From Solibacillus sp. FSL R7-0668 (GTDB lineage Bacteria; Bacillota; Bacilli; Bacillales_A; Planococcaceae): a stretch of DNA of 64,000 nucleotides. The stretch's first letter is position 1. Each line of letters starts with the position of its first letter. Shown piece after piece: positions 55,460-64,000 of the stretch. The translations under genes and the position numbers were made by a program. Under the pieces are notes generated by a model. It did not search any database. It saw only the letters and a list, made by a program, of their open reading frames with translations, and was not told the origin of the DNA. The stretch spans positions 3,910,001 through 3,974,000 of the forward strand of contig NZ_JBBOUU010000001.1 in NCBI RefSeq assembly GCF_038006205.1, read 5' to 3'.

Positions 55460-56407
55460 TCATTTTTGACTCTTTTGTACAATAAATTCTCGAGCATTAA
55501 ACCCTAAATCAATAATACCAATTAGAATAACAAACGAATAAAATGGAATCGCCATTAGCGTACTAATCACCTTTAAAAACTTCGGTTGTTTATAGCAATC
55601 CAGCACATAGTGGATAAACGAGATCCCTTGTATTGTTAGTAATACCCATAAAATCATCGAAACATTTAACATAACCATCCCTAATGTTGAATCTATCTCA
55701 GGACGGACAAATAAATTAACTGCTAATACAATGAAGTAATACCAAAGAATCGAGCGTGGTAAGCGTAGTTTACTAAATTCAGCAAATTTAGGTACATCTA
55801 CTTTCAAGCGTTTTAATATCGGTAAGTTCACCGAAATAAGTACCAACGCAAATAAGAGCATCGAAAGCGTGATTGCAGCCGGAACAACCATGTCTAACAT
55901 ATCTAACATATTCGTTAAATTATCCATTGTTTCCTTTGGCATTGCTTGTCCTGTCATTTGCTCTGTCATTTTAATGGATTCTAAATACGTTTTCCGCATC
56001 AAATCCAATGACTCTCTAATAAAATCAACTGCAAATAAACGAACCGCGATTACATATTGAATCGCAAATGTAATGATTAAAATGACACTTGTGGATAAAA
56101 ACATAAATACTTTGCTTTTTTTATTATAAATGGCGTCACCAATCGTCATACCTGCTGCTGCAAAGATTATCGAAGCGGGTATTAGGAGCAATCCACCAAT
56201 AAAAAAAGTAACGATAATTGCCGCAATAGTTACGAATAGCGATGATTTTCGATCATAGTGTGCACTATACCAAATAAGTGGTAGTGGTGCGACTACTGCT
56301 GCAAGTAAGTTCGCTATAGGCACATAAAAAACGATGGCCATCAACACTGTAAACAGTGCAATCATCATCGCGCCGTGTGCTAACTTCCTTGATTGATTAT
56401 TTTGCAT
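55460..56407 (-). CDS. yybS: YybS family membrane protein (DUF2232)
   Basis: A 315-aa protein with about eight membrane helices, matching DUF2232, always before gdpP in Bacillales. Function is unknown, possibly a transporter-like component linked to c-di-AMP. It ends 13 nt before the gdpP start. Confidence 0.9.
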   Translation of the reverse strand: MQNNQSRKLAHGAMMIALFTVLMAIVFYVPIANLLAAVVAPLPLIWYSAHYDRKSSLFVTIAAIIVTFFIGGLLLIPASIIFAAAGMTIGDAIYNKKSKVFMFLSTSVILIITFAIQYVIAVRLFAVDFIRESLDLMRKTYLESIKMTEQMTGQAMPKETMDNLTNMLDMLDMVVPAAITLSMLLFALVLISVNLPILKRLKVDVPKFAEFSKLRLPRSILWYYFIVLAVNLFVRPEIDSTLGMVMLNVSMILWVLLTIQGISFIHYVLDCYKQPKFLKVISTLMAIPFYSFVILIGIIDLGFNAREFIVQKSQK

Positions 56408-56587
56408 GGAGAACCTTCCTTATCTAATGTTCGAAAGACTACATAAAGTGCAAATACACACAGGTCTTTCCTATGCCGAGTCCTATATATGATTCATCGG
56501 CCCTTTCAACTTTTCTCACCATTCTATTGTACCATTTTTACATGTTCAAACAAACTAACGCCACATACAATACATAAAATTGAACAA

Positions 56588-56628
56588 CAAAAAACCACTC
56601 AAATCCAAAAATAGATTGAGTGGTTTTT
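56588..56628 (-). terminator. Terminator of rpsR copy 1
   Basis: Stem AAAAACCACTCAATC/GATTTGAGTGGTTTTTT, 30 bp past the rpsR stop. Confidence 0.85.
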
Positions 56629-56657
56629 AAAATGGTTACCTAATAACCAAATGAGAC

Positions 56658-56894
56658 TTATTTGTCTTCAGCAACGAATGGTAATAATGCCATAATACGT
56701 GAAACTTTGATTGCAGATGTAAGTTTACGTTGGTATTTAGCAGAAGTACCTGTTACGCGACGTGGTAAAATTTTACCGCGCTCAGAGATGAATTTCTTTA
56801 AAAGATCTACATCTTTGTAGTCGATGTGCGTAATGTTATTTGAAGTGAAGTAGCAAACTTTACGGCGTTTGCGGCCTCCGCGACGTGGTGCCAT
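56658..56894 (-). CDS. rpsR: 30S ribosomal protein S18, copy 1
   Basis: A 78-aa complete S18 protein ([18 protein letters not shown]..., ending VAEDK). Its product differs from copy 2 at a single residue, D versus E before the last Lys. It is separated from ssb by the recombinase element but adjoins yybS, its normal neighbour, so it may be the native gene. Expression probably depends on a promoter in the element's left end (57004-57031). GGAGGAACACGAT precedes the ATG. Confidence 0.95.
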
Positions 56895-56968
56895 TATCGT
56901 GTTCCTCCTTTTAATTTTTAAGTTTATAGATGCGTGTTCTTAGAACGGTAATTATGTTTACCGCCCTA

Positions 56969-57031
56969 TGTGTAATCTTTGATTTAACAATGGTTACTTA
57001 AATAGTATACGCTTTACTGTGTAATCTTCAA
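56969..57031 (-). promoter_or_regulatory. Element left end with inverted-repeat units and outward promoter
   Basis: Two copies of TGTGTAATC (56969-56977 and 57018-57026). On the minus strand TTGAAG (57026-57031), 16-bp spacer, TATACT (57004-57009) forms a good sigma-A promoter pointing to rpsR copy 1. The -35 box overlaps the second repeat unit, so recombinase binding could affect it. Confidence 0.65.
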
Positions 57032-57066
57032 ATGAAAATATCTTTACTTCCAAGAGGTTTTACATT

Positions 57067-57522
57067 TTACGAATCTTTATTCAGCTTAGTTATTTTTGAC
57101 GCTTGAATATGCTGGATATATTGTTCAAGGTCATAAATTCTTCGCTTCAAATTTTGATTCTCAATTGTTAGAGATGCATTTTGGTCTAACGTCATTTTCT
57201 TTTCTTCCTTTAGCTGTTTATTTTCAGCTCTTAGTTTTTCAATTCTTTCAGCTTGTAATGTTCCATTTGCCCGTTTTTCACGTTTAGGAGCCTCTACAGG
57301 GGCGTTTTGGTCTTCTTGTAGAGAAATAGCTTCTTCTACTAACTCCTTTAAATCGAGGCGATTGTAAAGAGTTTTACGGGATATTCCTGCTGCCGCAGCT
57401 ACACCAGCTATTGTAATAGGCTTACAAGCCTTTTTGAGCTTCTTTAAAGCTTCTTCAACCTTAATAGTTGATTTTGTTCGGTTAAACTCTGCTAAAGGCA
57501 TCTTTTTATTTTCAGTCATCAA
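57067..57522 (-). CDS. TnpC-like accessory protein
   Basis: A 151-aa protein: N-terminal helix-turn-helix (PITIAGVAAAAGISRKTLYN, about 37-56) and C-terminal coiled coil (IEKLRAENKQLKEEKKMTL, about 95-145). This matches TnpC of Tn554, which directs orientation and efficiency of transposition. It overlaps the upstream recombinase by 11 nt. Confidence 0.75.
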   Translation of the reverse strand: MMTENKKMPLAEFNRTKSTIKVEEALKKLKKACKPITIAGVAAAAGISRKTLYNRLDLKELVEEAISLQEDQNAPVEAPKREKRANGTLQAERIEKLRAENKQLKEEKKMTLDQNASLTIENQNLKRRIYDLEQYIQHIQASKITKLNKDS

Positions 57523-59161
57523 TAGAACCTTCTTTCAATGCGACTTTTAGCTGTAAATCAGTAATGTATTTCACTAATTTCCCTTGTTGGTAGTTTAATT
57601 TTGTAGTATAAACACTATCAGTAGGGGAGTTGGCTAACTCTGCTTTCACTTTTTCTAACCGTCTTTCGTATACAGGTAAGTGATCTGCTGAAGCGATAAA
57701 CTCACTACAACCTAAACATACTCCATCTTGTGCACAAGGTTCGCCTCGCATTGGATGATGTAAACATAATCCGTGTGGTAGAAGTTCGATTTTTAATGCT
57801 CTACGCATCTTATCAATTTGTTCGACTGTTTTCCCCTTAAATGGATTTACTTCGCCTTCAATTGACTCTAAGACAATTTTATTTGTTGAAGAAATAGGTG
57901 TTTCACCAGTTAAAATATTTTCAATTATTTTCTGCTTCTGTCCTTTAGTATGGTCATATGTTTCAGTCATCATAATGGATTCGTGATTTAACATTTCTGC
58001 TACATCGTGTATTTTCATTCCATCTTTTAATGCGTACGTCGCAAAAATATGTCTGAAATAATGTGACGTTAATACCAATGGCTTTCCATTAGAATCTAAT
58101 ATGTTATTTTCTTTGACGAAAGGATTTAAAAAACTTCGATTCCAGTTACCGTGATCAGCCAATAGAATACGAGGTGTATTATTTAGTGAATCTTTATATG
58201 CTGACACATATAAGAATAAATATGACATTCCTGAAAGTTCTCGTAATGGTTTAGAGAATTCCTCTAGCTTATGAATAGCTTTAACGACCATCTCATTTGC
58301 AGGTCTATCAACATCAACTTTAGTTTTCTTAGTCTTAGTAGTTGTATAAGTAATCTGATACTCTCCACCAATCACTTTTACACATCCCGATTTAACTGTT
58401 AGACATTCACTAATACGTATACCTAGTTGAGTCATTAAGATTACGCTAGTGGCTGCGAAGTAACGTGAAACGTCTTTAATCTTGTATGTTGAAATGTTTT
58501 CGGTATCAATCACTTCAAATATATCAGAAATTGTTTTTTCAGCTGTCTGTAGTAATAAATCGATTTCACTGTTTGCTGGTAGAACTTTATTTGTTTTACC
58601 GAATTTAGTGTCAATTTTGATGCCTTTGTTATTAATGATCAGCTCATCGTAAACAAGTTCATAACCTGCGGTTTCCTTTGCAGAATCCCATCCACGAGTG
58701 GAACCTCTAAGTAATAGCTCTTTCATTACCTGACCATTTTTCTTTTTACTTACACCTGATAATTCTGATCCTAGAACGAAATTCAAGTAGGATACAAATT
58801 CAGTCTTAGTAAAGTCTTTAAACGAAGTTATATGTTCATTTTGTTGTAAGAATATTGGTAGTCGAGAAAACGCTGATAGCTTTCTTTTAACAGAGTTAAA
58901 AGTATTAAGCGTAAGCTCACTTAGAATATAGTGTTTGATTACTTTTTGTATACGAGGGTAATCTTTAAACTCACTAAAATTTAGTCGCAGTTTACCTGGT
59001 TTAAGATGTTCAAATTCATCTGCTAGGATTTCACTGAAGTCCCATATATCATCTGAAAAAGTACTCTTTCCTACTTTGAAATCTTTCTCATTATTTTTTT
59101 GGATTGGACCTTGTTCAGTTATTAAAAGTTTCAGCTTTAATTCACCCAATATTTTCACCAC
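57512..59161 (-). CDS. Tyrosine recombinase, third of the trio
   Basis: A 549-aa integrase. Catalytic residues: Arg in QLGIRISECL, then SHYFRHIFATYALKDG, LNHESIMM and Tyr in TETYDHT. The C-terminal extension carries Cys/His groups (CLHHPMRGEPC and CLGCSEFI), probably a Zn knuckle. It overlaps the previous gene by 20 nt and the TnpC-like gene by 11 nt. It corresponds in role to TnpB of Tn554. Confidence 0.88.
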   Translation of the reverse strand: MVKILGELKLKLLITEQGPIQKNNEKDFKVGKSTFSDDIWDFSEILADEFEHLKPGKLRLNFSEFKDYPRIQKVIKHYILSELTLNTFNSVKRKLSAFSRLPIFLQQNEHITSFKDFTKTEFVSYLNFVLGSELSGVSKKKNGQVMKELLLRGSTRGWDSAKETAGYELVYDELIINNKGIKIDTKFGKTNKVLPANSEIDLLLQTAEKTISDIFEVIDTENISTYKIKDVSRYFAATSVILMTQLGIRISECLTVKSGCVKVIGGEYQITYTTTKTKKTKVDVDRPANEMVVKAIHKLEEFSKPLRELSGMSYLFLYVSAYKDSLNNTPRILLADHGNWNRSFLNPFVKENNILDSNGKPLVLTSHYFRHIFATYALKDGMKIHDVAEMLNHESIMMTETYDHTKGQKQKIIENILTGETPISSTNKIVLESIEGEVNPFKGKTVEQIDKMRRALKIELLPHGLCLHHPMRGEPCAQDGVCLGCSEFIASADHLPVYERRLEKVKAELANSPTDSVYTTKLNYQQGKLVKYITDLQLKVALKEGSIDD

Positions 59162-60551
59162 CTTGTAAAGCTTTTAAGCGATCTATAATAGTCTCTAAAG
59201 CTTTCTCAGTTTGGTTCAATACGTGTTCATTTCCAAAAAGGTCTTCTGCCATATATCTTGCCTTGTCAGCTCTTATACGTCTTAAATGATCTTCGTGAAC
59301 ATCTAGAAACTCAGGAGTCGTAATAAACTTAGGACAGAATAGACATGCATTAGGTTTTTTACAATTAGGTACTTCTTTTGCCAATGGCTTACCACAAGCA
59401 CCGTCAGGTAGCTGTACAACTAACTTCGTTTCCTGCGTTATTTCTTCACCAGAATCAGTTTTAATGTCTTCTAGAGACTCTTTAACAGTACCGATAAATC
59501 CTAATTTCTTGTATTCTTCCGTTAGCTTGTCATTTCGAACTTTTGCATACAGCCTTGTTGAGTGCATCGATTGGTGACCGAGATATTGTTGTATCTCAAA
59601 AGGGGACAGACCGTTGTTCAACATTTCGGTTCCTAAAGTATGTCTAAAACTGTGAAAAGTTATCGTTCGAGGTAAATGGTTTCTAGCTAACCAAATTTCA
59701 AGTTTTTCCCTTGAGTCTTTTGGATTAATAACTCTGATATCACCATTTTGTCCTCGATAAGAAAACAACTTATCTTTAGGATTATTCAACCCTAATTCGT
59801 CAAGTTTTTTTACTAGATATTGAACTGCCGACTTCACTTTATTATTTACAGGAATGTAGCGTTCAGTTAGATTTTTAGGGCTTACAACTTCTAAAAGGTT
59901 CTTACCTAAAATATCTACTTCTATACAATCTTTAGTTAATAATAAAGCTTCTGAAATTCGAATTCCTGTGTGTCTAATAATAGCGACCATAGGATGTATT
60001 AAATAACCTTTAATATTTCGCTTCCCATCTTCTTTTTCCTTTATTTCAAAAGGAACTTCGAGAGACTTGTCGATTACTGCCAAATGGTCATCTTCAATAA
60101 CTTTCGTTTTCAGAGTATCTTGTGTTTTTAACATTCGAAATTCTGTTCCATCAAATATTGTATGTTTAGGGAACCCAAGCATTTGAAAGAAAGTCCCGTG
60201 ATCTAGAATAGATTTTAATGCTGCAATAACAATAGATCTTGTACTAGCAGAAGACTTATTCTCTAACAAATAAAGTACGAATAGCTCAATCATTTCGTAT
60301 TCAATTTCTTCAAATGTTTTAATATCTATTTCTTCTTCCTTTAGGAATTCAAAAAAGGCTTTTAAGGAATAGTTGTATCGATGTAGTGTTGAAACACTTT
60401 TAGTTTCCATATTTAAAAGTTTGCTGGTAATTTCCTTGATGGTATCTCTAAAATACCCTTCGGGTATGAAGTCGAAGCTGAAATTATACATTTCATTTTT
60501 TCCATCAATTGACCAATAATCACTTTTAATATCCAGTAATAAGCTAGTCAT
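59142..60551 (-). CDS. Tyrosine recombinase, second of the trio
   Basis: A 469-aa integrase. Arg in HTGIRISEALL, then TFHSFRHTLGTEMLNN, LGHQSMHS and Tyr in TRLYAKV, so all catalytic positions are present. The C-terminus has a Cys cluster (CGKPLAKEVPNC, then CLFCPKFI), like the third recombinase. Its start directly abuts the end of tnpA. The Cys-rich extensions are shared only by these two. Confidence 0.88.
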   Translation of the reverse strand: MTSLLLDIKSDYWSIDGKNEMYNFSFDFIPEGYFRDTIKEITSKLLNMETKSVSTLHRYNYSLKAFFEFLKEEEIDIKTFEEIEYEMIELFVLYLLENKSSASTRSIVIAALKSILDHGTFFQMLGFPKHTIFDGTEFRMLKTQDTLKTKVIEDDHLAVIDKSLEVPFEIKEKEDGKRNIKGYLIHPMVAIIRHTGIRISEALLLTKDCIEVDILGKNLLEVVSPKNLTERYIPVNNKVKSAVQYLVKKLDELGLNNPKDKLFSYRGQNGDIRVINPKDSREKLEIWLARNHLPRTITFHSFRHTLGTEMLNNGLSPFEIQQYLGHQSMHSTRLYAKVRNDKLTEEYKKLGFIGTVKESLEDIKTDSGEEITQETKLVVQLPDGACGKPLAKEVPNCKKPNACLFCPKFITTPEFLDVHEDHLRRIRADKARYMAEDLFGNEHVLNQTEKALETIIDRLKALQGGENIG

Positions 60552-61640
60552 CTACTTTAGCCCCCTAGTATTTAAAAATCTCTCGTACGATAAGGACAAA
60601 GTTTTTAGTGATGGCTTTGCATATTTAGCTGTAGTTTCAATACTTCCATGTCCCAATCTTTCTTTGATAACATTAATGTCTACGCCCATATCTTGTAATT
60701 CAGACGCATGCGTGTGTCTTAATGTATGAGCTGTTAATTTAACACCTTTTACATCTAGTGCTGCATTTAACTTTGCAAAGAAAGCAATAATAGACTGTCT
60801 AGTTATTGGTTGCCCTAATGTGTTACTTGAGTGAGAAACAAATAAATACTCAACATCTGTTTTGCCAGGTCTGTGATATAAAACATACTCATCAATTTCC
60901 TGTAACAGTTCTGAAGCAACAGGCACAGTACGTTCACCAGTTTTTAATTGCCTATCCTCTAATTCATTTGGACGTTCTATAAGATAGATATTACCTGTCT
61001 TTTTATCAGGATCAGGATAATCAAAATCATCCATTCTTAAATGCAATAATTCTGATGTTCTAAAACCTGTTTCGTATAAGATTTTAAAGATTAATTTATT
61101 TCTAATTAATAAATCTTCATTACCACCATATAAGGTTTCAATCGCTTCATAATATCTAATCGCATCATTATCATATAGCCTCTTTTTATCTGTTTTCTTA
61201 GGTGCTTTCCTCTTGAAATAACTTTGGAAATTCCCCCATTTAGGGGCTATATGCTTTAAGAATCCATAATTCATATTGTTGTTACTTTCTACAGTTACAA
61301 CAGGGGATTCCACATACCCACCTATAACTTCTAAATGTCTATAAAATGAACCTAATGTTGCTAGATATCTATTCCAAGTAGGGGGAGATATCTTTCTTCC
61401 TTTTCGTTGGTCTAAAAACTCTAAAAACCCTAATAATTCTGATGGGTGAACACTATAAAATTTTAAATCATGTTGTTCTAACCAAATATAATAAAGTTTC
61501 AAATCATCCAAATAGCCTTTAATGGTATTAGGAGACAAACCTTTTTTCTCTAACGTGTTCGTAAAATTTAAAACCTCTGGAAGTATCCTCATATTAGAAT
61601 CAACTAATACATATGAGGTTAAAGTTCTTTCAATTCTCAA
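60552..61640 (-). CDS. tnpA: Tyrosine recombinase TnpA-like, first of the trio
   Basis: A 362-aa integrase, the length of Tn554 TnpA. SAM-like N-terminal domain (about 15-100) and catalytic residues Arg in ETGFRTSELL, then TAHTLRHTHASELQDM, LGHGSIET and Tyr in TAKYAKPS. TTG start behind AGGGTGATG; this site lies within the end repeat that is also found upstream of rpsR copy 2. Confidence 0.88.
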   Translation of the reverse strand: MRIERTLTSYVLVDSNMRILPEVLNFTNTLEKKGLSPNTIKGYLDDLKLYYIWLEQHDLKFYSVHPSELLGFLEFLDQRKGRKISPPTWNRYLATLGSFYRHLEVIGGYVESPVVTVESNNNMNYGFLKHIAPKWGNFQSYFKRKAPKKTDKKRLYDNDAIRYYEAIETLYGGNEDLLIRNKLIFKILYETGFRTSELLHLRMDDFDYPDPDKKTGNIYLIERPNELEDRQLKTGERTVPVASELLQEIDEYVLYHRPGKTDVEYLFVSHSSNTLGQPITRQSIIAFFAKLNAALDVKGVKLTAHTLRHTHASELQDMGVDINVIKERLGHGSIETTAKYAKPSLKTLSLSYERFLNTRGLK

Positions 61641-61647
61641 AAAGCAT

Positions 61648-61812
61648 CACCCTATACACGATATTCTGATTACACACTTATACACCAAAGTATATCATCT
61701 GAACATTGCCATATAAAGTTTTAAAAAGGATTACACACACCAATTAATCGATGTGAATAATCTGTTCTTATATACTTTTTAAGAAGTTACTCATTACATT
61801 TAAAATTGAACC
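61648..61812 (+). repeat. End repeat R, before tnpA
   Basis: About 165 bp nearly identical to 62325-62487 (by eye, close to 90 percent). It contains GATTACACA at 61668 and 61729 and carries the tnpA promoter/ribosome site on the minus strand. Confidence 0.8.
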
Positions 61813-61924
61813 TTACCTATCGCTATTACAACCTATGGAGAAAATAAGCAATCTTTTTTATAAAAATCAATCTTAGTAGCTCCACTTTTTCTTTAGAGCA
61901 GTATTCTTTGTGAATACAGCGTAA

Positions 61925-61969
61925 ATAAAAAAGCACAACAAAGGTTATGAAAACCCTGTTGTGCTTTTA
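61925..61969 (-). terminator. Terminator of rpsR copy 2
   Basis: Stem AAAAGCACAACA/TGTTGTGCTTTT with a TTTTTT tail, 15 bp past the stop. It blocks read-through from the ribosomal operon into tnpA. Confidence 0.85.
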
Positions 61970-61983
61970 TTAATAAATAAATT

Positions 61984-62220
61984 TTATTTCTCTTCAGCAA
62001 CGAATGGTAATAAAGCCATAATACGTGAAACTTTGATTGCAGATGTAAGTTTACGTTGGTATTTAGCAGAAGTACCTGTTACGCGACGTGGTAAGATTTT
62101 ACCGCGTTCAGAAATGAATTTTTTTAATAAATCTACATCTTTGTAATCGATGTGCGTAATGTTGTTTGAAGTGAAGTAGCAAACTTTACGGCGTTTGCGA
62201 CCTCCGCGACGTGGTGCCAT
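61984..62220 (-). CDS. rpsR: 30S ribosomal protein S18, copy 2
   Basis: A 78-aa complete S18, ending VAEEK. About a dozen base changes separate it from copy 1, nearly all synonymous, so both copies are under selection. Its spacer from ssb is 329 bp and holds the second end repeat, unlike the short spacers usual in this operon. AAAGGAGGACACCCATA precedes the ATG. It may be element-borne or the remains of an earlier insertion. Confidence 0.93.
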
Positions 62221-62324
62221 TATGGGTGTCCTCCTTTAATAATTTTTTTGTAGACTATTCGACACTAGAATATTAATTATCCTATTAGACGTATCTGAAT
62301 AAACTCACCAGAATCTTAATATTT

Positions 62325-62487
62325 CCCCCTATTACACAATATTCTAATTACACACTTATACACTAAAGTATATCGTCTGAACATTGCCATATATAGGTTT
62401 GGAAAGGATTATACACACCAATTAATCGATGTGCATAATCTGTTTTTATATACTTTTTAAGAAGTTACTGGTTACACATTAAAAACG
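62325..62487 (+). repeat. End repeat R', between ssb and rpsR copy 2
   Basis: Second copy of the end region. It has ATTACACA at 62331 and AATTACACA at 62345, and TTACACA units continue to 62525, near the ssb stop. Same orientation as repeat R. Confidence 0.8.
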
Positions 62488-62549
62488 TAAATAAACTTAG
62501 GTATATCAACGTTATTACACATTACACACTTTAGTTTATTTACCATTTT

Positions 62550-63113
62550 TCAAAACGGTAAATCGTCTTCAGAAACCTCGATTGGTCCTTTGCTATTTGC
62601 AAATGGATCTTCATCTACACGTGTATAGTTTTGCTGATTTTGAGGTGGTTGCTGATAAGAACCATAAGAATCTTGTGGTTGCGCGCCCCCAAATTGCTGG
62701 TTTGGCTGATTGTATGATGGTTGTCCACCATAGTTTTGCCCACCACCATATTGTTGGTTGCCTTGCATACCTTGAGATGCATTTGCTCCTCCACGCGGCT
62801 CTAAGAACTGCACAGCATCTGCAACGACATCTGTTGTGTATACACGCTTCCCATCTTGTCCTTCATAGCTACCTGTTTGAATACGGCCTTCCACACCAAT
62901 TAAACTTCCTTTTCGCATGAAGTTCGCTAAGTTTTCAGCTTGTTTTCTCCAGGCAATACAGCCTATGAAATCTGCTTCACGTTCACCAGATTGGTTCGAA
63001 AAAGTACGATTTACAGCAATTGTAAAACGTGCCATTGGAACGCCACTTGGTGTATAACGAAGCTCAGGATCCTTTGTTAGTCTTCCAACTAATACAACAC
63101 GGTTAATCATCAA
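62550..63113 (-). CDS. ssb: Single-stranded DNA-binding protein
   Basis: A 187-aa protein: OB-fold (1-105, starting [20 protein letters not shown]), Gly/Gln/Asn-rich linker and acidic tip EDDLPF that binds partner proteins. It follows rpsF by 35 nt in the ribosomal operon. The insertion of the mobile element lies just after its stop. Confidence 0.97.
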
Positions 63114-63148
63114 TGCACCCTCCTTTTTTCAGCATTTTTATTTAAAAA

Positions 63149-63439
63149 TTATTTGTCATCTTCGCGTACAGCGATGTGACGGATGATGTCTTCGCTGATG
63201 TTCGCTAAACGAGTATATTCGTTGATAGCTTCTGTACCAGCGTTAACTTTCACGATTTGGTAGAAACCTTCGCGGAAGTCGTTGATTTCGTAAGCTAAGC
63301 GACGTTTACCCCAGTCTTTTGCTTCAACGATCTCTGCACCATTTGAAGTTAAGATCTCTTCGAAACGAGCTGTTAAAGCTTTTTTCGCCTCATCTTCAAT
63401 GTTTGGGCGGATAATGTACATTAATTCATACTTTCTCAT
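63149..63439 (-). CDS. rpsF: 30S ribosomal protein S6
   Basis: A 96-aa S6 ([12 protein letters not shown]...). The ATG at 63439 is chosen as AAGGAGG lies about 10 nt upstream; the GTG four codons earlier overlaps it. S6 pairs with S18 on the ribosome, and the S6:S18 complex controls this operon in many bacteria. Confidence 0.97.
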
Positions 63440-63467
63440 TTGTGTTTGCACCTCCTTATGGACTTGG

Positions 63468-63489
63468 GCTCTCCTGTCTAGCAGGGAGC
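63468..63489 (-). promoter_or_regulatory. Hairpin in the rpsF leader
   Basis: GCTCCCTG-ctaga-CAGGAGAGC with one bulged base, about 30 nt before rpsF. Candidate for the S6:S18-binding leader RNA; the conserved nucleotides were not verified. Confidence 0.35.
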
Positions 63490-63615
63490 AAGGAGTAAGT
63501 AACTTCTATTACTCACATCAATGAATTGTATCATACTTACAATTTAGGCGCAACCCAATACCGCTCTTAATCTTTATTCACCTTTTGTTATAATCATTAA
63601 TAAGGGAGGTGCCTT

Positions 63616-64000
63616 ATGAACAATCATCAGCCAATTATTATTGAATTAAATATGCAAAAAATTGCGCGTGACAATATTATTTGGACAATAGGTCTCATTA
63701 TTTTTACCGTACTATTAAATGCACTTATTCATCAACGCTTTACTGCTCATTTTTCGTGGTTGGATTTTATCTATTTATTTCTTGCTTATATCGTACTGAT
63801 TGTTTCACATGAAACCTTTCATTTACTAGGCTTTATGATTTTTGGTCGCGTTTCCTATAAAGACCTTGATTACGGTATCAATATAAAACTGGGTGTCGCG
63901 TATGCTACAACACATCAGCCGCTTTCAAACGCTGCGATGAAAAAAGCACTGCTACTCCCTTTTTGGACGACTGGTGTTACACCTACGATTATTGGGCTAG
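63616..64000 (+). CDS. DUF3267 membrane protein with HExxH motif (partial)
   Basis: 128 codons, cut by the window edge. Two hydrophobic segments (about 24-42 and 52-70), then HETFHLLGF, a zinc-metalloprotease-like motif in DUF3267. GGGAGGTGCC precedes the ATG. Site-2-protease-like activity is inference. Confidence 0.75.
   Translation, partial: MNNHQPIIIELNMQKIARDNIIWTIGLIIFTVLLNALIHQRFTAHFSWLDFIYLFLAYIVLIVSHETFHLLGFMIFGRVSYKDLDYGINIKLGVAYATTHQPLSNAAMKKALLLPFWTTGVTPTIIGL

Follow-up and report, generated by a model that had tools for sequence, protein, structure and literature searches.

An rpsR-carrying, GInt-like element in the last codon of ssb in Solibacillus sp. FSL R7-0668 and related loci

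Introduction

Integrating elements often stay harmless by restoring the handful of bases they disrupt. Here we describe an element of 5.6 kb in a 64-kb stretch of Solibacillus sp. FSL R7-0668 (the window, meaning the whole stretch of DNA that was analysed; its genome is G000 in our surveys) that instead targets a gene in an essential operon, ssb, and carries the next operon gene, rpsR for ribosomal protein S18, whole and in the same place and direction. Several described systems come close to it. RIT elements consist of three recombinases alone, with inverted terminal repeats of ~34 bp; the window element differs in having a fourth conserved gene, and one arm of the most complementary long pair reported in the window (21 nucleotides (nt), 95%) falls within the first recombinase gene. 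Tn554, to whose type an original prediction from this DNA had assigned the element, reportedly targets radC. The window element resembles it in a homologous but distant first recombinase (26–32% identity, among the records listed) and in a small fourth protein that takes the position of TnpC, but has three recombinases and a DUF6262 protein against two and TnpC, and its target is ssb. For Tn554-related elements and SEs, a footprint of 6 bp has been described (PMC10214605); in Tn554 it is carried over from the left flank at the donor site to the right end at the new one. The one-base differences between left and right cores at two related loci (genomes G113 and G496) would fit a short footprint, and the cores agree in the window and in G034.

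The closest described systems are the genomic islands with three integrases (GInts). The main text of Bardaji et al. (2017, PMC5385486) describes them as islands of variable cargo and high site specificity that bear the three integrases and a small protein at one end. Six of the 11 GInts examined there lie in the same ssb homologue, where attL overlaps the end of the gene and leaves its product unchanged, and imperfect direct repeats of 10–17 nt flank the islands. They excise as circles, for which all four genes are needed; GinC lacks the first arginine of the catalytic motif. The window element likewise has, by gene order and domain matches, three tyrosine recombinases followed by a small protein, and it inserts site-specifically at the ssb 3′ end, leaving the product unaltered. 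Because its third recombinase, unlike GinC, keeps the catalytic R-H-R-H-Y residues, we call it GInt-like and not a GInt. Judged by its genes, the element is GInt-like rather than Tn554 proper, and the earlier assignment to a plain Tn554 type did not hold.

Two further systems touch on single features of the locus. Tn552-II of methicillin-resistant Staphylococcus aureus carries a "target-gene-like" gene, tgl, for which the authors suggest a rescue role (PMC12486829); like the window element it brings along a spare gene, in its case a homologue of the target gene itself. Its target is a yolD-like or plasmid gene, whereas the window element carries the essential gene that follows its target, and some genomes have a decayed native-side copy. 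Islands of the SaPI4/SscPI type share the rpsR locus and have one integrase inserting at the 3′ end of rpsR; the core in the window lies in ssb, and the portion of PMC8407400 used here describes no full second rpsR for these islands. The word "ribosomal" occurs 0 times in the main text of PMC5385486, which makes no mention of rpsR as cargo. In our searches of open-access PMC articles, main texts only, we found no paper on an element carrying rpsR, in line with the original prediction, nor any in which a carried downstream operon gene supersedes the native one.

Results

To define the element, we aligned the window to G015, a relative with an empty site, a single rpsR, and 97% (SSB) and 92% (YybS) protein identity to the window. 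The empty site reads GACGATTTACCGTT up to the insertion point and CTAAGAAC after it; in the window, the left flank reads GACGATTTACCGTT followed by TTGAAAAATGG, and the right flank ACATAATTACCGTT followed by CTAAGAAC. Because the empty site gives exact junctions, the element spans 56944–62553 (coordinates converted arithmetically from alignment positions). The point of insertion falls within the final (Phe) codon of ssb, with CCRTT on one side and the remainder of the codon on the other; the third base of that codon and a new stop come from the element, and the tip of SSB, DDLPF, is retained. The insertion had been predicted to fall between ssb and rpsR, which is right for the ssb/rpsR locus, where copy A keeps an S18 gene behind ssb, but the point itself is within ssb. 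The predicted span, 56658–62220, does contain both rpsR genes, but it starts with the native one and stops short of the true left end at 62553. On the minus strand the order is rpsF, ssb, the element, rpsR copy B and yybS, and all genes of the element, namely rpsR copy A, three phage-integrase-family proteins and the DUF6262 protein, are co-oriented. The features are as follows.

63149..63451, minus strand: rpsF, from the list of open reading frames (ORFs); first gene in the rpsF-ssb-rpsR order, which is the same in relatives
62550..63113, minus strand: ssb, the target gene; product ends DDLPF, the last base of the Phe codon and the stop coming from the element
56944..62553, minus strand: whole element, 5,610 bp, running from the left junction in the final ssb codon up to and including the right core TTACCGTT; from the empty-site alignment
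62554..62561, minus strand: left core TTACCGTT, in codons of the SSB C-terminal tip (L-P-F); from the alignment and junctions
62514..62528, unstranded: two left-end motifs ATTACACA, starting at 62514 and 62521 on the plus strand; from the motif count
62333..62483, minus strand: 151-nt direct repeat (89%), outer copy, in the gap from ssb to rpsR copy A
61984..62220, minus strand: rpsR copy A, element-borne, intact S18 gene; from ORF, TIGR00165 match and alignment
61922..61969, minus strand: terminator-like hairpin with T-run 3′ of rpsR copy A, judged by eye
61655..61805, minus strand: 151-nt direct repeat, inner copy, immediately 5′ of the first recombinase
60552..61640, minus strand: first recombinase (tnpA/ginA-like), 362 aa; R194, H305, R308, H331, Y340
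59142..60551, minus strand: second recombinase, 469 aa; R198, H300, R303, H326, Y335
57512..59161, minus strand: third recombinase, 549 aa; R249, H367, R370, H393, Y402, all there
57067..57522, minus strand: DUF6262 protein, 151 aa; TnpC/GinD-like by position and size only
56969..57025, unstranded: two right-end motifs TGTGTAAT, starting at 56969 and 57018 on the plus strand, 49 bp between them
56944..56951, minus strand: right core TTACCGTT, then native CTAAG and the leader of rpsR copy B
56658..56894, minus strand: rpsR copy B, native, separated from ssb; from ORF and alignment to the empty-site relative
55460..56407, minus strand: yybS homologue, native, downstream of rpsR; from ORF and the order in relatives

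The two S18 genes are, as predicted, intact and one residue apart. Both ORFs are of 78 aa, ending AEEK in copy A and AEDK in copy B, and each scores ~121 bits against TIGR00165 (cut-off 38.75); a whole-genome search found exactly these two copies. At the DNA level, the copies differ at 11 of 237 nt, and over the 68 codons compared 9 of the ten differences are synonymous and 1 is not. Against the empty-site relatives G015 and G002, copy B has 1 difference in 237 nt and copy A has 10. Because copy B is a single nucleotide away from an empty-site relative while A and B differ at 11 positions, window copy A is, judged by these distances, no recent duplicate of B; in the tree, A is not sister to B, although the fork that places it is weakly supported (82/75). 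The stretch 3′ of copy A is 88.7% identical over 97 nt to G130 of the Lysinibacillus group and 95.2% over 63 nt to G046, but within the coding sequence copy A comes closest to the genus of the window and to G033, which suggests recombination between the element and resident genes. By such sequence comparison, copy A of the window and copy A of G496 (see below) are foreign in origin.

A domain search assigned all three large ORFs to the phage-integrase family, and alignments showed R-H-R-H-Y to be complete in each; the five residues of the third recombinase are invariant among the three sequences aligned. The S18 genes had been predicted to flank the recombinase genes. These do lie between A and B, but with the DUF6262 gene the set comprises four genes, not three, and copy A lies inside the element. 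The first recombinase is 26–32% identical over 93–100% of its length to plasmid recombinases (the 20 records listed, of 98 that matched), which we take to be of Tn554 type, the records themselves carrying only the labels integrase or recombinase. A plasmid search with the third recombinase at 1e-20 gave no match. DUF6262 (PF19776) is the fourth protein in three sets (window 57067-57522; L069:14127-14576; L076:10472-10933), which suggests a TnpC/GinD-like role for this family of no known function.

Junctions recur among the related loci. The sequence CCNTT, followed across the junction by CTAA, was found at five right junctions (attR: window, G113, G034, G496 and Heyndrickxia sporothermodurans), and among left junctions (attL), the four whose left end is of element type (window, Heyndrickxia, G496, G428) show CCRTT followed by TTGA or TTAG. 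The window element is bounded by an exact 8-nt direct repeat, TTACCGTT. The TGTGTAAT/ATTACACA motif occurs 9 times in the window, 8 of them inside the element (2 at the right end and 6 in the left kilobase). The 49-bp spacing of the right-end motifs is identical in the window and Heyndrickxia elements, and a right-end signature is common to G000, G113 and G034, which are of three genera.

We surveyed 261 genomes of the family and 398 drawn from the class; an order-level search returned the family set again and added nothing. Two rpsR matches were found in 8 of the 261 family genomes. Two of these (G190 and G233) were dropped as one gene split at contig ends, and in the remaining six (G000, G034, G113, G046, G118 and G119) the second copy or relic lies beyond inserted DNA between ssb and yybS. 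In the class, at E 1e-12, a cut-off that misses short relics such as that of G046, two rpsR genes were found in 4 of 398 genomes (G000, G034, G118 and G496), one in 393 and none in 1. All four two-copy genomes carry the element family or its remains at ssb/rpsR, and no genome among the 398 had two rpsR genes without them; given these counts, the arrangement is not a chance one.

The first recombinase matched six of the 261 family genomes at E 1e-30 and lies beside rpsR in four (G000, G034, G123 and G142); the loci of the other two, G229 and G234, were outside the comparison. A profile search of the class at 1e-50 found it in 4 of 398 (G000, G034, G428 and G496), and a search of the family of G496 found it in 1 of 39. 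A scan of a species collection with a three-row alignment returned three loci: Heyndrickxia sporothermodurans DSM 10599, Bacillus sp. REN16 (on a 5-kb contig that lacks flanks) and Lysinibacillus macroides DSM 54, with the same genes as G123. In the Lysinibacillus-group genus g14, 6 of 31 genomes show a second copy, a relic or recombinase remains (all 31 of the 32 genomes with an rpsR match, viewed over ~12 kb or less). Distant relatives of the first recombinase (~30%) in G008 (two places), G046 (another contig) and G091 had no rpsR or rpsF within their loci of ~2.7–4 kb.

The related loci can be read as a series in which the spare rpsR is absent (Heyndrickxia), diverged (window and G496), identical to the native-side copy (G034 and G113), or intact beside a decayed native-side copy (G118, G119, G046 and G142). 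G496, of a second family (f22), has in order ssb, the left end, copy A, the four genes, cargo, the right end, copy B and yybS, with the copies 28.8 kb apart (here and below, start to start). Its copy B is 92–100% like that of the nine congeners viewed (66 residues), whereas copy A, at 82–88% protein and 66–75% DNA identity to all 15 family natives viewed, is close to none; its divergence amounts to 42 synonymous against 16 other nucleotide changes. In G034, the identical copies are 30.7 kb apart, within repeats, core to terminator, that agree at 352 of 356 nt; the island between them holds ArsA and ArsB (Pfam), rhodanese/sulfur genes (by eye) and a first-recombinase fragment truncated by a transposase-like ORF. 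The identical copies of G113 are 5.8 kb apart, with ATP-binding cassette (ABC) transporter cargo and the right-end signature.

In four Lysinibacillus-group genomes, an intact copy A is accompanied by a pseudogene or fragment of B. G118 and G119 have a copy B with three deletions and a stop, and recombinase fragments adjoin A; G046 retains a remnant of 24–25 codons. In G142, the last dozen codons of B are left and a recombinase fragment adjoins A. A decayed recombinase also adjoins A in G123, with a weak 15-codon trace further on and then an element-type terminator. The arrangement recurs in two families, and decayed native-side copies stand beside an intact A.

A terminator like that of element copy A also follows rpsR in 19 of 40 single-copy genomes, in all of which the rpsR-yybS gap is 520–6,301 nt, against 128–490 nt in the other 21; the 40 were picked by nearness and are mutually related, not random, so that statistics overstate the evidence. 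Elsewhere the resemblance is rare, at four places in 680 kb of flanking DNA, with G142, G123 and G135 among the matches listed. Occupants of these intervals, named by eye, include ABC-transporter sets and, in 5 genomes from the genus of the window, a ribose operon. Since a DNA search found no rpsR relic in the 19 intervals of at least 520 nt, it is the terminator pattern that would tie these occupants to the element. The terminator type may represent an old second allele or earlier rounds of replacement, and the pattern, itself unproven, suggests further old rpsR replacements in the 19 genomes.

Discussion

Taken together, these results are probably best explained by a GInt-like element in the last codon of ssb whose own rpsR rebuilds the rpsF-ssb-rpsR order and leaves the native copy redundant and free to decay. 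The recombinases would insert the element site-specifically in the stop region of ssb, and the insertion would separate the essential native rpsR from rpsF-ssb. The left end of the element would complete ssb, and the element rpsR, next and in the same orientation, would restore the order; native rpsR, now redundant, would decay as in G118, G119, G046 and G142, and losing the element would from then on mean losing the sole S18 gene. We infer read-through from the operon into copy A, relief of the cost of insertion, and resistance to loss once B has decayed. Copy A lies directly behind ssb in the sense orientation in G000, G034, G113 and G496, and no other observation points as strongly to use of the carried copy as the native-side decay seen in relatives.

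Several observations weigh against this explanation. Copy A lies 329 nt behind ssb in the window, compared with 47 nt for rpsR in the empty-site relative (342 nt in G496, 38 in G113 and 51 in G034; 47 and 51 nt in element-free relatives), and promoter-like sites are no commoner than in shuffles (26 versus 26.6). G113 and G046 have no recombinase match at the locus, and in G034 and G113 the copies are 100% identical, which calls for gene conversion or homologous integration. In G113, G123 and G142, the native-side copy or relic is likewise followed by a terminator of the A type. A search for other recombinase trios between ssb and rpsR, proposed with the original prediction, turned up four-gene sets in G496 and Heyndrickxia, but in G428 the trio stands behind an ssb while the only rpsR is 1.2 Mb away, behind a second rpsF. 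In Heyndrickxia sporothermodurans, the homologous four-gene set occupies the same site behind ssb with a single rpsR, after the set, in the whole genome. The window element does carry an additional intact rpsR, and this may let it sit there, but a spare is not strictly required.

The Heyndrickxia element speaks also for the rival view that copy A rides along passively. In that view it was acquired when excision was imprecise or through homologous recombination with the operon and does not help the element, while B stays expressed from promoters of the element or of read-through type. Outward promoters may occur on GInts (PMC5385486, Discussion), and the identical copies of G034 and G113 show how easily recombination with the host gene occurs. 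It is B, however, not A, that has decayed in G118, G119, G046 and G142; A is next to ssb in sense in four genomes and has stayed intact in G496 over the long divergence given above. We regard this view as unlikely. Duplication in place, whether in tandem or by Campbell-type homologous insertion of a circle, with the recombinases incidental, would suit the near-perfect repeats of G034 and the two copies of G113, where element ends are present without recombinase genes. The copies of the window and G496 have nevertheless diverged, with B the vertical copy, and the right-end signature in three genera and the 0 of 398 class genomes with two copies but no element or remains also argue against it. 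Tandem duplication was rejected for the window and G496 by this divergence and for the window also by the empty site; a recent one shared with strains free of recombinases, raised in the original prediction as the alternative, is contradicted by the tree (at its weak fork), the single-copy empty-site relative and all four two-copy class genomes, with G113 as the contrary point. We give duplication in place little credence. Least probable by far is ordinary restoration of an att-site gene in the way that SaPI4-type islands, integrating at the 3′ end of rpsR (PMC8407400), rebuild that end: the core is part of ssb and not of rpsR, and the second rpsR is whole, with a leader and a terminator of its own. 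The junctions led us to reject att-site duplication in rpsR.

If the proposed working of the GInt-like element holds, elements could exploit sites inside essential operons, core ribosomal genes would have a route for horizontal replacement, and the result would be an addiction mechanism without a toxin. A broader reading, possible but doubtful, is that rpsR-carrying GInt-like elements have acted as hostage islands that repeatedly replaced the S18 gene in Lysinibacillus and related genera; a large share of today's rpsR genes there would then be element-derived, and permanence would follow as excision would delete the sole S18 gene.

The 151-nt direct repeat brackets copy A and is perhaps a scar of its capture; it suggests insertion of rpsR, through recombination, behind a recombinase leader that had been duplicated. 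An Rfam scan of 56400–64000 gave one sub-threshold plastid match over the hairpin 3′ of copy B and nothing else up to E 0.5, and the hairpin and T-run 3′ of copy A are absent from the list of the computed scan. A plasmid-borne rpsR as intermediate was rejected: the single record inspected of 64 plasmid matches, Priestia megaterium NZ_CP140268.1, is chromosome-like and without the element. Filed as a plasmid, it carries rpsF-ssb-rpsR-yybS, dnaB, noc and walK and looks like a piece of chromosome. Phage records matching S18 numbered 22. G428 (L075 and L086) has two rpsF loci, one with ssb and the trio and the other directly before the sole rpsR; its third recombinase is broken by transposase-like genes (by eye). 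The cargo of G496, SpoVAD and a YetF/DUF421 protein with DUF1657, is reminiscent of mobile spoVA operons, which are linked to spore heat resistance.

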